Virus record (IMG/VR): IMGVR_UViG_3300034063_000999
Location: 1 to 23,947 of that record
Origin: a virus
Direction: 5' to 3' (one strand)
DNA length: 23,947 bases
Below are positions 12,308 to 22,504 of this stretch, one piece after another. Below the pieces are notes generated by a model. It saw only the letters and a program-made list of their open reading frames with translations, was not told the origin of the DNA and searched no databases. The translations under genes were made by a program, and so were the position numbers. Position 1 is the first letter of the stretch; each line of letters opens with the position of its first letter.

Positions 12308-13398
12308 TCCCAGACGCCGGTCAGATCAACCTCAGTGTCATACGTTGCGTAAAATCTGGAGGTCGTGCTGGGACTTTTGTGGCCGAGCATGTGCTGCACC
12401 ACGCTGATCTTTCCGGTCTCATTGAGCACGTCGCTGCCCGCCTGCCGGCGCAACTCGTAGGCAGCCGACCGCCGATCCGGCAGGAACTCGCGCACCCAGA
12501 GGTTGAAGTTGCGCTCCATAAATTTCTCCCGCATGCCCTTGGTGTGCCCGACCACCATAAAGTCGTCGGCCTCCATCAGCTCCGGAACCATCCACGCTGG
12601 GACGGCCATGACGCGGCCGCGCTTGGCGCCGGTCTTGAGCGTAAGCTTCTCCTCAGATCGCTCAATAACCACCATGACGTGCCGGTCCCCGCGGTCTTCG
12701 ATCCAGCCCTTGCGGCAGTAGGCGACCTCCTTGGGCGTCATGCCCAGGTAGCGAGTTAGTAAATACGCGCGCCGCGTGGCGCCGCCGATGGCCTTGCTGC
12801 TGGCCTCCATCTTTTTCAGCGTCTCCGGCGGGATGCGGACGAAGGTTGAGACTGGCGCCTTCATGCCCTTGGTCGCCGCGGCAAACTTGGCGATGGAGTC
12901 CGGCAGCTCAAAGCCCTCCCAGTCCAAGGGATGGGCGAAGATGGCGCGCGCGGCCGCCATATTGGTCCGCACACTGTAGGCGCTGCCTTGAAACTTCTCC
13001 CGATACTTGGCCACCAGCGAAGGCGAGATGACCGAGAGCGGCTTGGCGCGCGCCGCATCGTTGTCGCCGCCGAAGACCGTGCGCAGGATTAGGAGCAGGC
13101 AGTTGACATTGGCGTGGCGGCTGGCGATTTTGCTGACCTTCAAATAATGATCAATTGCCTTACCAACCGGGAGCGCTGTGGATCGCATGGCGTGATCTTT
13201 AAGGGCCGCGATGCCCTTGACGGCCGTTGCGTTGAGGATGACCTGCGCCTTGGCCTTGGCCATGTCGAGGTTGGCGGTGCCAAGCGAGACCCGTTGCCGC
13301 TTGCGGAGGCTTGGGTGGTAGAACTTGAGCTGCCAGCGCGGAGAGGCGCCTGTTGTGTAAATGCGTCCGGTGATACCGCTACTTTTGATCGTGTGCAT
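12298..13398 (-). CDS. int: tyrosine-type site-specific integrase
   Basis: 366 residues from the ATG at 13398 (MHTIKSSGITGRIYTTGASP); a GTG five codons upstream is possible. An N-terminal arm-binding region is followed by a SAM-like core-binding domain (about 75-170) and the catalytic domain: KTGAKRGR beta-strand Lys (259), YELRR (314-318, Tyr in place of the usual His, Arg present), LGH (338-340) and the nucleophile in SRFYATY (Tyr350). The first catalytic Arg, normally in a GLRxxE motif, appears as GMTPKE. It lies beside attP, as usual, and should insert the phage at a tRNA-Thr gene. Confidence 0.9.
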   Translation of the reverse strand: MHTIKSSGITGRIYTTGASPRWQLKFYHPSLRKRQRVSLGTANLDMAKAKAQVILNATAVKGIAALKDHAMRSTALPVGKAIDHYLKVSKIASRHANVNCLLLILRTVFGGDNDAARAKPLSVISPSLVAKYREKFQGSAYSVRTNMAAARAIFAHPLDWEGFELPDSIAKFAAATKGMKAPVSTFVRIPPETLKKMEASSKAIGGATRRAYLLTRYLGMTPKEVAYCRKGWIEDRGDRHVMVVIERSEEKLTLKTGAKRGRVMAVPAWMVPELMEADDFMVVGHTKGMREKFMERNFNLWVREFLPDRRSAAYELRRQAGSDVLNETGKISVVQHMLGHKSPSTTSRFYATYDTEVDLTGVWDQQ

Positions 13399-13434: not shown

Positions 13435-13470
13435 AGTTTGGCAGAATTTTGGTCGAAACTTTGGCAAAAT
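13435..13470 (+). repeat. integrase arm-type repeats, P arm
   Basis: Two direct repeats, AGTTTGGCAGAAT (13435-13447) and ACTTTGGCAAAAT (13458-13470), 23 bp apart, or two helical turns. Two related copies lie across the tRNA fragment at 13623 and 13649. Direct repeats flanking the crossover are the usual arm sites of a tyrosine integrase. They also sit upstream of the integrase gene and may serve its autoregulation. Confidence 0.6.
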
Positions 13471-13535
13471 GTGAGTGCATTCAAATGCAACCAAACGCAA
13501 TGTCTTGCGCTCTTTTCACAAGAATTTGATAGCTC

Positions 13536-13572
13536 GCCGGCATAGTTCAGTGGCAGAACACCTGATTTGTAA
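13536..13572 (+). other. attP core: 5' half of a tRNA-Thr(UGU) gene
   Basis: Sequence matches tRNA positions 1-38: acceptor GCCGGCA (13536-13542), TA, D-stem GTTC/GAAC with loop AGTGGCA, then anticodon stem CCTGA and loop TTTGTAA (anticodon TGT at 13568-13570). The expected 3' anticodon stem TCAGG is absent (CTAGC instead), and no T-arm or acceptor 3' strand follows. Identity therefore stops exactly at the end of the anticodon loop, the usual crossover region for tRNA-targeting integrases. It is not a functional tRNA by itself. Confidence 0.8.
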
Positions 13573-13622
13573 CTAGCCGATTTATCCGGGTTTACTCAGA
13601 TGCTCTAGTGGGTATGGCCAAT

Positions 13623-13657
13623 AGTTTGGCACTTGTTTTTGCCGCATCAGTTTGGTA
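13623..13657 (+). repeat. integrase arm-type repeats, P' arm
   Basis: Copies AGTTTGGCA (13623-13631) and AGTTTGGTA (13649-13657), 26 bp apart and in the same orientation as those at 13435 and 13458. The second overlaps the promoter for the HNH gene, so integrase binding may affect that gene. The segment 13573-13622 between core and arm holds an inverted ACTAG/CTAGT pair (13572-13576, 13605-13609) and nothing coding. Confidence 0.55.
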
Positions 13658-13661
13658 TAAT
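13633..13661 (+). promoter_or_regulatory. promoter of HNH endonuclease gene
   Basis: TTGTTT (13633-13638) and a perfect TATAAT (13656-13661) are separated by 17 bp. The transcript would begin near 13668, leaving only about 7 nt before the ATG at 13675, so the mRNA may be nearly leaderless; no strong Shine-Dalgarno is seen. This is the best sigma-70-type promoter in the window. Confidence 0.6.
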
Positions 13662-13674
13662 TGATGGGTAAATT

Positions 13675-14289
13675 ATGGAAGCTGCTGCCCACTCGGGCAC
13701 CAGCGCGGGAGCAAGCGGGAGGGTGTTTCGGGGTTACCGGACCAAGCGATACAAGGATGGGTCCACGGCCGTTTGCGAGCGCTGGGTTTCGCTCGAGACA
13801 TATCAAAAGGAGTTGGCGTACAAGCGCGAACACAACCGCGCGTACTACCAGCGCAACAAAGAAAGACTAGTGCCCTACCACGCTCAGTGGAAAAAGGACA
13901 ATCCCGAGAAGTTCGCCGCGCACCGTCGCACCTACATGCGCACTAACCCGCGCGCTCGGATCGGGAATAGTCTGCGCCGGCGTGTGGCTCGTTTGTTGGG
14001 CGCCAGCCAAAGTCGCGGGCGCTACCGCAAGCTGATAGGCTGCTCGCCGCAGGACTTGATGCTTTCCCTTGAGTGTCGCTTTGAGCCTGGCATGACGTGG
14101 CAGAACTATGGAAGCGCTTGGCACATCGACCACATTTTGCCGCTGTCTTCCTACGACCTCACCGACCCAGCCCAACAGCGCGAAGCCTTCCACTACACCA
14201 ACCTCCAGCCGCTCTGGGCGAGCGCCAATATGGCCAAGAGCGACACGGTGGAGGGCGAGGACATCGTGCTAGGGATGCTTGCGGCTTAG
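13675..14289 (+). CDS. HNH endonuclease
   Basis: 204 residues. The C-terminal third carries the HNH core: WHIDHILPLSSYDLTDPAQQ, then AFHYTNLQPLWASANMAKSD, where His-Ile-Asp-His supplies the catalytic and metal residues and the Asn of NLQPLW the middle position. The N-terminal part is basic and Tyr/Arg-rich (YKREHNRAYYQRNKERL), likely for DNA contact. A free-standing HNH gene between attP and the late operon, opposite in direction to its neighbours, may be a homing-type insertion or an accessory gene. It does not sit beside terminase here. Confidence 0.85.
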   Translation: MEAAAHSGTSAGASGRVFRGYRTKRYKDGSTAVCERWVSLETYQKELAYKREHNRAYYQRNKERLVPYHAQWKKDNPEKFAAHRRTYMRTNPRARIGNSLRRRVARLLGASQSRGRYRKLIGCSPQDLMLSLECRFEPGMTWQNYGSAWHIDHILPLSSYDLTDPAQQREAFHYTNLQPLWASANMAKSDTVEGEDIVLGMLAA

Positions 14290-14290
14290 G

Positions 14291-14321
14291 CAAAAAGAAA
14301 GGGCCAGCCGTAGCTGACCCT
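14291..14321 (-). terminator. rho-independent terminator of the late operon (possibly bidirectional)
   Basis: Stem 14300-14308 pairs with 14313-14321 around a CGTA loop with one mismatch. On the minus strand it is followed by TTTCTTTTTG (14300-14291), a proper T-tract, ending transcription after the gene at 14350-19881. On the plus strand a weaker TAGTCTCTTT follows, so it may also stop HNH transcripts. It is the only gap between the convergent genes. Confidence 0.75.
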
Positions 14322-14349
14322 TAGTCTCTTTCCGGGCGTGCCGGATGAG

Positions 14350-21386: not shown

Positions 21387-21752
21387 TTATTCCTCCAAGA
21401 TTCCCGCCGCAGCCCGTGCTTCGAGGCACAGTTGTGAACCCGGCACGAAAGCGCGGCAGGCTGCCGGCCGGTGGTTGTAGATTGAGCACGACACGCCGCA
21501 GCCGACTTCGCCGGTCAGCGCCACGCAGCGGTTGTTCGTTGTCTTCATCAGTGGGTAGTCGGTGCGCAGCATCCATTGCGGGATGCCAGCAGCGTCAGAT
21601 CGGTCTCGTCGCAGGACAGGCCAGGACCACTTGTGAGAGCAGCATGCCCCACACCGTTGACAGTCGAATCTTGCCACGTCGGGCGGAAGCCCTGCGCTTC
21701 GCTGTGCAAGTCGATGTAGGGTGCCAGATGGCTGATGTTGTTCGTCTCGCAT
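21387..21752 (-). CDS. YkgJ-like cysteine-cluster protein
   Basis: 121 residues from the ATG at 21752. Cys31-x2-Cys34-x2-Cys37-Cys38 (FDCQRCGACCS) and a later GCGVSCSIYNHRPAACRAF match the zinc/iron-chelating CxxCxxCC family. Metal binding is expected; the reaction is unknown. The first 69 codons, including the CxxCxxCC motif, overlap the end of the PAPS-reductase-family gene in a different frame. The two genes probably act together. The start is uncertain: a GTG a few codons before the Cys motif is another choice. Confidence 0.7.
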   Translation of the reverse strand: MRDEQHQPSGTLHRLAQRSAGLPPDVARFDCQRCGACCSHKWSWPVLRRDRSDAAGIPQWMLRTDYPLMKTTNNRCVALTGEVGCGVSCSIYNHRPAACRAFVPGSQLCLEARAAAGILEE

Positions 21753-22504
21753 TGATTCTTCGGGCACCAGACGGCGCCTCCGAGGTGCCGGTTCACGCAG
21801 TTCCAGCACACCGGATAGTAGTCGCTGTTTGCGCTCTTATCCTTCCGGTGTCGCCACACGCCGTCCGACTTCTCGTATCGGGTGTCGTCATTCGGCACGC
21901 CTTCGGCTTCCAAGTAGTTCCACACGTCGGCATCCGACCAGTGGCGCATCGGGTAGAGCTGCGTCGGAATCCCCGCCTGCACCAAAACGTCCTGCGCGAG
22001 CGGCACTTGGCCCTTGATGAGATCCACGTCGGCGCTCTTTTGGCCGTGGAAGGCGGCATCCCACGGGAAGTTGAAGGTGCCGGTCGGGCGCTTGAGGCAG
22101 TCCAAGCCGCACAGATAGCGTCCGCTGGCCAGCTCCTCCGGCTGCGGTTCTTCGGTGCCGAGGCAGAGCGCCAGCGACTTGGTGCCGATCTGGTAGAGCT
22201 TGATGAAGTCAAAGCGCGGAATGCCGGTCTCGATGTCGTAGCCGTCTGTCAGCGCATAGCCGAGAGGCGCGTAGTCATACATTTCAAGATCCCAAGCCTG
22301 CGCCAGCATGTCGCTGTAAGCATAGCGATGCCGGAAACGCGGCTCGCGCCACTGGATTACTGGCAGCTTGGCGCCGACCTTGTGGCGGATGAGGTGCAGC
22401 ATGGCCGTGCTGTCCTTGCCGCCGCTCCAAAGCACAACGGGGCTGGCGCTGGCGTCCAGCCACCGCTCCACCTTCCGGCATGTCTCTTTGACCAGTTGCT
22501 CCAT
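21548..22504 (-). CDS. PAPS reductase-family (PP-loop) protein
   Basis: 318 residues. The PP-loop SGGKDS (27-32) in VVLWSGGKDSTAML binds ATP or an adenylyl group. Cysteines at CGLDC (132,136), CWNC (233,236), 247 and 252 could hold a metal or Fe-S cluster, as in relatives that move sulfur. Despite the family name, phage members need not reduce PAPS; sulfur transfer to nucleic acid is an alternative. The core ends near NNISHLAPYIDL (about 265); the last 50 residues overlap YkgJ-like coding and look unconstrained. Located among virion genes, 3 nt after the structural gene. Confidence 0.82.
   Translation of the reverse strand: MEQLVKETCRKVERWLDASASPVVLWSGGKDSTAMLHLIRHKVGAKLPVIQWREPRFRHRYAYSDMLAQAWDLEMYDYAPLGYALTDGYDIETGIPRFDFIKLYQIGTKSLALCLGTEEPQPEELASGRYLCGLDCLKRPTGTFNFPWDAAFHGQKSADVDLIKGQVPLAQDVLVQAGIPTQLYPMRHWSDADVWNYLEAEGVPNDDTRYEKSDGVWRHRKDKSANSDYYPVCWNCVNRHLGGAVWCPKNQCETNNISHLAPYIDLHSEAQGFRPTWQDSTVNGVGHAALTSGPGLSCDETDLTLLASRNGCCAPTTH

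Follow-up and report, generated by a model that had tools for sequence, protein, structure and literature searches.

A phage attachment site carrying the 5' half of tRNA-Thr(UGU), and its relatives across four tRNA isotypes

Capture of the 5' half of a tRNA gene by an integrating element is rare but already documented. Among the islands mapped with Islander, a 5' tDNA fragment is found in 159 of 3919 (~4%), and in these the tRNA gene receives its 5' part back from the island (PMC4383910). In T7-like cyanophages, the 5' half is the rule; their 39-bp sites match the first half of tRNA-Leu, and integration occurs without stable lysogeny (PMC8776855). The archaeal pTN3-like integrases also use the 5' half and have the rebuilt tRNA read from the integrase promoter, which is seldom seen in bacteria (PMC8371274), and divergent (OD) pairs of integrase and tRNA genes, which are predicted to be autoregulated, make up together with the SIT class less than 8% of 1273 pairs (PMC2951348). 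Here, we analyze the phage attachment site (attP) of the IMG/VR virus record IMGVR_UViG_3300034063_000999, a linear contig of 23,947 bp (the window), in which the gene of a tyrosine-recombinase integrase (int) stands beside the 5' half of a tRNA-Thr(UGU) gene. An earlier note on this DNA had implied that such polarity is exceptional, and the islands and cyanophages cited above make it less so. What we did not find described is the present integrase lineage, the single polarity that it keeps over four isotypes while switching targets, and its atypical catalytic motif.

The tRNA half reads GCCGGCA-TA-GTTC-AGTGGCA-GAAC-A-CCTGA-TTTGTAA; position 17 is missing from the D loop, so that these 37 nucleotides (nt) cover tRNA positions 1-38. 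Base-by-base reading agrees with the earlier note, which had assigned 13536-13572 to these positions of tRNA-Thr(UGU) and placed their end at the end of the anticodon loop. Beyond 13572, the window reads CTAGC where the tRNA would read TCAGG, the match ends at once, and the 3' half is absent. The phage DNA bordering the half ends with GAATTTGATAGCTC on the left and reads CTAGCCGATTTA on the right. The Rfam tRNA model gives the half 15.1 bits, under the 29-bit cut-off, and no complete tRNA is found in the window by ARAGORN.

Lambda-type integrases use phased arm sites that flank the core on both sides, and sites of this kind surround the tRNA half. The consensus ASTTTGGYA is matched five times in the window, where 0.44 matches are expected, and 0 of 100 shuffles reached five. 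Across 30 distinct relatives, the arm positions are conserved at about -101, -90, and -78 from G1 of the tRNA and at +38/+50 (or +27/+39) past the half, with the same spacing whichever isotype is carried; the window sites at 13435, 13446, 13458, and 13623 occupy these family positions, and the one at 13611 is degenerate. The four AGTTTGGCA-type repeats listed in the earlier note (13435, 13458, 13623, and 13649) are all present, but the copy at 13649, which overlaps a TATAAT, is found only in the window among the relatives. Arm repeats on both sides at fixed spacing and an adjoining tyrosine recombinase gene mark the segment as a lambda-type attP core.

Relatives were collected from viral contigs with the integrase and then with an alignment of 18 relatives, the single query returning 27 integrase relatives and the alignment ~40, two of them marginal; tblastn found none in phage and plasmid collections. 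The window and the 35 IMG/VR relatives whose region upstream of int is present form the attP set, with integrases that are 59-96% identical. A 5' tRNA half that starts at G1 and ends at the anticodon loop is carried by 36 of these 36 regions and a 3' half by none, so that the 5' polarity claimed for the window extends to the whole set; the rule by which halves were detected demanded a paired D stem, and every locus passed it. Judged by anticodon, four isotypes occur in one register: Thr-UGU (window, L002-L010, L013-L014, L016, L019-L021, L025-L026, L028, L031-L035, and L041), Thr-CGU (L037-L040), Lys-CUU (L011-L012), and Met-CAU (L015, L017, L018, L023, and L030). In the integrase tree, a Lys-CUU member is nested with good support in an otherwise Thr-UGU set, and the Thr-CGU and Met-CAU members fall in a clade of their own. 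Because the Lys-CUU integrase nests among the Thr-UGU ones, the targets have switched with polarity and register unchanged. Separate trees of the two integrase halves conflict over the Met group, which suggests domain exchange between integrases. In L015, L018, and L030, the N-terminal half of the integrase groups with the Thr-CGU members and the C-terminal half with the window's group.

The half itself has been conserved through the divergence of its surroundings. It is identical between the window and L006 at 37/37 positions (33/45 upstream and 24/40 downstream), between L037 and L039 at 37/38 (12/45 upstream), and between L031 and L033 at 38/38 (14/45 upstream). The acceptor and D arms are identical or nearly so where the flanks are at chance level, and positions 1-26, which lie outside the recombination core, are as conserved as the core; because these arms stay conserved where the flanks have drifted, the half looks kept for tRNA function. 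Each of the 12 distinct halves preserves all D-stem pairs; two of the four pairs carry double changes, six double-changed cells in all (variants GTTC/GAAC, GCTC/GAGC, and GCAC/GTGC), and 0 of 500 shuffles reached the observed paired cells or covariation score. When the halves tested, the window's included, were joined virtually to the 3' half of tRNA-Thr from Pseudomonas silesiensis or E. coli, ARAGORN recognized a complete tRNA-Thr with the right anticodon. Natural tRNA-Thr genes match the halves of two relatives at 36/38 and 35/38 positions; these nearest of the genes compared belong to Pseudomonadota and give only a hint of the host. The simplest reading of these comparisons is that the phage half would become part of a working tRNA.

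Strand exchange would need only the region around the anticodon loop. In the mechanism that we propose, the integrase would recombine the attP core with the stretch of a host tRNA-Thr(UGU) gene that encodes the anticodon loop, the crossover overlap presumably lying within the loop. The integrase-side junction would then be a complete tRNA composed of the phage 5' half and the host 3' half, and positions 1-26 would be kept by the phage because they become part of this working tRNA. The rebuilt tRNA would read outward from the prophage, divergent from int, and at the other prophage end the host promoter would face a non-functional 5' fragment; the layout of attP supports the suggestion of the earlier note that the rebuilt gene would be separated from the host promoter and lie on the integrase side. 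Read-through of phage transcription, which that note had considered as a means of maintaining the tRNA, is excluded by geometry as far as int is its source, because int, whose start lies 122 bp from tRNA position 1, diverges from the tRNA, and transcription would therefore have to start in the 122-bp gap or antisense to int. Transcription of the rebuilt tRNA would begin in the gap, probably at a promoter unlike those of sigma-70. To the whole of this reading, namely a lambda-type attP with a captured 5' half, a tRNA rebuilt on the integrase side, and a non-sigma-70 start in the gap, we assign a probability of roughly 80%.

Islander islands were mapped in host chromosomes, whereas the present phage is known from attP alone. 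P-SSP7 and S-TIP37 (Tiamatvirus and kin) also have an attP with a tRNA 5' half (PMC8776855), but their int lies upstream in the same orientation, TTGTTA-16-TATAAT stands ahead of the half, only tRNA-Leu is used, and their integrase is not detectably similar to the present one by tblastn. In pTN3-type elements, the rebuilt tRNA is likewise separated from its own promoter (PMC8371274, PMC5495485); in contrast to the present intact and divergent int, the integrase gene of these archaeal elements contains attP, is split when the element integrates, and would supply the promoter for the tRNA. The attL of the KplE1/HK620 type is comparable in that the int promoter would overlap the attachment region, but in KplE1, the experimental model, int lies downstream of its tRNA, and the divergent layout seen here is rare (PMC2951348).

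Several observations weigh against the proposed mechanism, the first of which concerns the promoter. No convincing sigma-70-like promoter is found upstream of the window half, where the best score in the 122-bp gap is 2.3, and a second scan of this gap also returned no promoter. Among 29 upstream regions (the window and 28 relatives), only L004 (8.8, p 0.04) and L006 (8.1, p 0.08) come near significance, with -10 elements at different places. As the same matrix scores 12.4 on the promoter ahead of the P-SSP7 half, the scan is able to detect one, and the statement of the earlier note that none is visible on the integrase side stands for promoters of the sigma-70 type. The gap contains the arm sites and short repeats, possibly excisionase sites, as well as an AATTTGA element, conserved in the family, which fits the IHF consensus in the window and the L003-type members and partially elsewhere. 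A candidate antisense promoter, TTGACA-17-GATTTT, lies inside int at 13103 with a score of 9.6.

Further points on the same side come from the core, the D stem, and the integrase. The attP of L002-L005 and L025 reads TTTGTTC where tRNA-Thr would read TTTGTAA, within the presumed overlap, and the D-stem covariation could reflect the copying of host tRNAs and not selection in the phage. Profile alignment to the HP1, lambda, P2, and P-SSP7 integrases (probability 92.8, E 4e-7) shows that the canonical set R..K..H/KxxR..H..Y is incomplete: K260, R322, H345, and Y355 are kept, Thr226 (in LGMTPKE) stands where those four integrases have Arg-I, YELR replaces HxLR and places Tyr319 at the box-II His position, and the nucleophile Y355 comes one residue late (LGH+10, with F/W at +9). 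Thr226 and Tyr319 are invariant in 24 members, and with these residues at Arg-I and in place of the HxLR histidine, the activity of the integrase is not assured; two AlphaFold models (pLDDT, the predicted local distance difference test, of 54 and 44) are too poor to judge the substitute residues.

The last point is that no attB, attL, attR, host, or integrated copy was found in the viral contigs or in the 84,980 genomes searched. The search that the earlier note had proposed, for the segment followed by TCAGG, gave zero matches in these genomes with an exact 33-mer, an integrase profile gave 23 pattern matches and no relative, and DNA patterns for either side of the site returned only attP forms from the viral contigs. 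Because neither host, attB, nor integrated copy was found in the 84,980 genomes, integration and expression are inferred. A tRNA pattern match in the viral contigs proved to be one T4-like phage tRNA gene and was set aside as unrelated.

The best surviving alternative, which is possible and still clearly less probable than the proposed mechanism, is that integration is only transient, as in the T7-like cyanophages with a tRNA 5' half, in which case expression of the junction tRNA would hardly matter. P-SSP7 and S-TIP37 have the first half of tRNA-Leu at their sites and integrate, but stable lysogeny is not seen in them (PMC8776855); all relatives of the window are seen in attP form, with none integrated in the viral contigs or the 84,980 genomes, and no repressor was recognized in the annotated parts of two relatives. 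P-SSP7 nevertheless has a good promoter ahead of its half; host genomes may be absent from the set, and the annotation of the two relatives is partial, most of their open reading frames being without matches.

That no promoter is seen also speaks for a reading in which a second host gene makes the rebuilt tRNA dispensable and only the recombination core is under selection. We consider this unlikely, as conservation at positions 1-26 equals that of the core, no D-stem pair is lost, the half starts exactly at G1, and all this holds for four isotypes; the genes for tRNA-Lys(CUU) and elongator tRNA-Met are often single-copy. We are equally doubtful of a more far-reaching version of the proposed mechanism, a widespread uncultured lineage with a rewired integrase active site that lacks the canonical Arg-I and box-II His, always 5' halves, and isotype switching, in which the tRNA is started from an unrecognized promoter or control element in the P arm; if true, an essential host tRNA and the phage's own integrase would come under the joint control of the prophage.

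Two other accounts fare worse. In the tRNA-dependent lysogeny of mycobacteriophages, a tyrosine integrase also uses a tRNA gene, a target known in actinobacteriophages, the host gene is disrupted, and its role passes to a complete tRNA of the phage without any rebuilding (PMC10865867). These phages share only a ~10-bp core with the host and carry a whole tRNA, but the shared part is 37-38 nt here and no whole tRNA gene is found in the window, 28 relative loci, or six near-complete relatives, which makes this account very improbable for the present site. A 37-nt match that arose by chance, or as a relic of a tRNA gene, and has nothing to do with attP would agree with the missing attB and is scarcely credible, since place, register, and polarity are the same in 36 of 36 regions and the arm sites lie at fixed distances.

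Table 1. Features of the attachment site and its neighbors in the window
Feature	Position	Strand	Remark
Tyrosine-recombinase integrase gene, 371 aa	12298..13413	-	Pfam PF00589 E 2.4e-6; PHROG 1 E 4.7e-15
Arm-type site P (-101)	13435..13443	+	position conserved in family
Arm-type site P (-90), ATTTTGGTC	13446..13454	+	position conserved in family
Arm-type site P (-78)	13458..13466	+	position conserved in family
Possible accessory-factor site TATCAAATTCTTG	13519..13531	-	just upstream of tRNA half; fits IHF consensus
5' half of tRNA-Thr(UGU), positions 1-38	13536..13572	+	attP core
Acceptor 5' strand	13536-13542	+	
D stem	13545-13548/13556-13559	+	4/4 pairs
Anticodon-stem 5' strand	13561-13565	+	
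Whole anticodon loop	13566-13572	+	anticodon TGT at 13568-13570; presumed crossover overlap
Degenerate arm-type site P' (+38)	13611..13619	+	ACTTTGGCC/ACTCTGGCA at that position in many relatives
Arm-type site P' (+50)	13623..13631	+	position conserved in family
Promoter-like TTGTTT-17-TATAAT	13633..13661	+	score 11.7; overlaps 13649 repeat
Endonuclease VII-like HNH gene	13675..14289	+	PHROG 1035 E 5.8e-13; adjoins attP

The candidate IHF site in Table 1 was judged by the IHF consensus WATCAANNNNTTR. To the right of attP, the promoter-like TTGTTT-17-TATAAT probably serves the endonuclease VII-like HNH gene, which is missing beside attP in several relatives. A terminator-like inverted repeat (14292-14330) lies on the other side of this gene from attP in the window and directly after attP in L006, L007, L011, L026, and L075; because the repeat directly follows attP in these five relatives, the HNH gene looks like an insertion beside attP. 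In L002-L005 and L008-L010, a strong promoter-like TTGACT/TTGACA-CATAAT on the tRNA strand comes right after the P' arm sites and would read into the phage in a lysogen. The core of L002-L005 and L025 is a perfect inverted repeat, CACCTGA-TTTGTTC-TCAGGTG, the loop of which departs from the tRNA at positions 37-38. A T-armless cloverleaf considered in the attP of L002-L005 folds well as L002/L003 RNA (-19 to -21 kcal/mol; Rfam 28.1 bits) and was dropped, as its acceptor partner is at chance level (p 0.36-0.39) and the other members lack it. Elsewhere in the genomes, in L049 (3830-5452 and 7436-8452, terminase and capsid comparisons), the terminase has one relative among 50,697 phage records, in Phage C75C1 at 35% identity; this phage is also the nearest capsid match, is without an annotated integrase, and has no host stated in its record. 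A phosphoadenosine phosphosulfate reductase-like auxiliary gene is present in the window (21548-22504, a short match) and in L049 (2832-3833, a longer match).

The attachment site analyzed here belongs to an integrase family in which the otherwise rare 5'-half polarity is the rule across four tRNA isotypes. With such a family, one can ask by what means a prophage maintains expression of an essential host tRNA that it has separated from the host promoter, and whether phages thereby gain control over a host tRNA.
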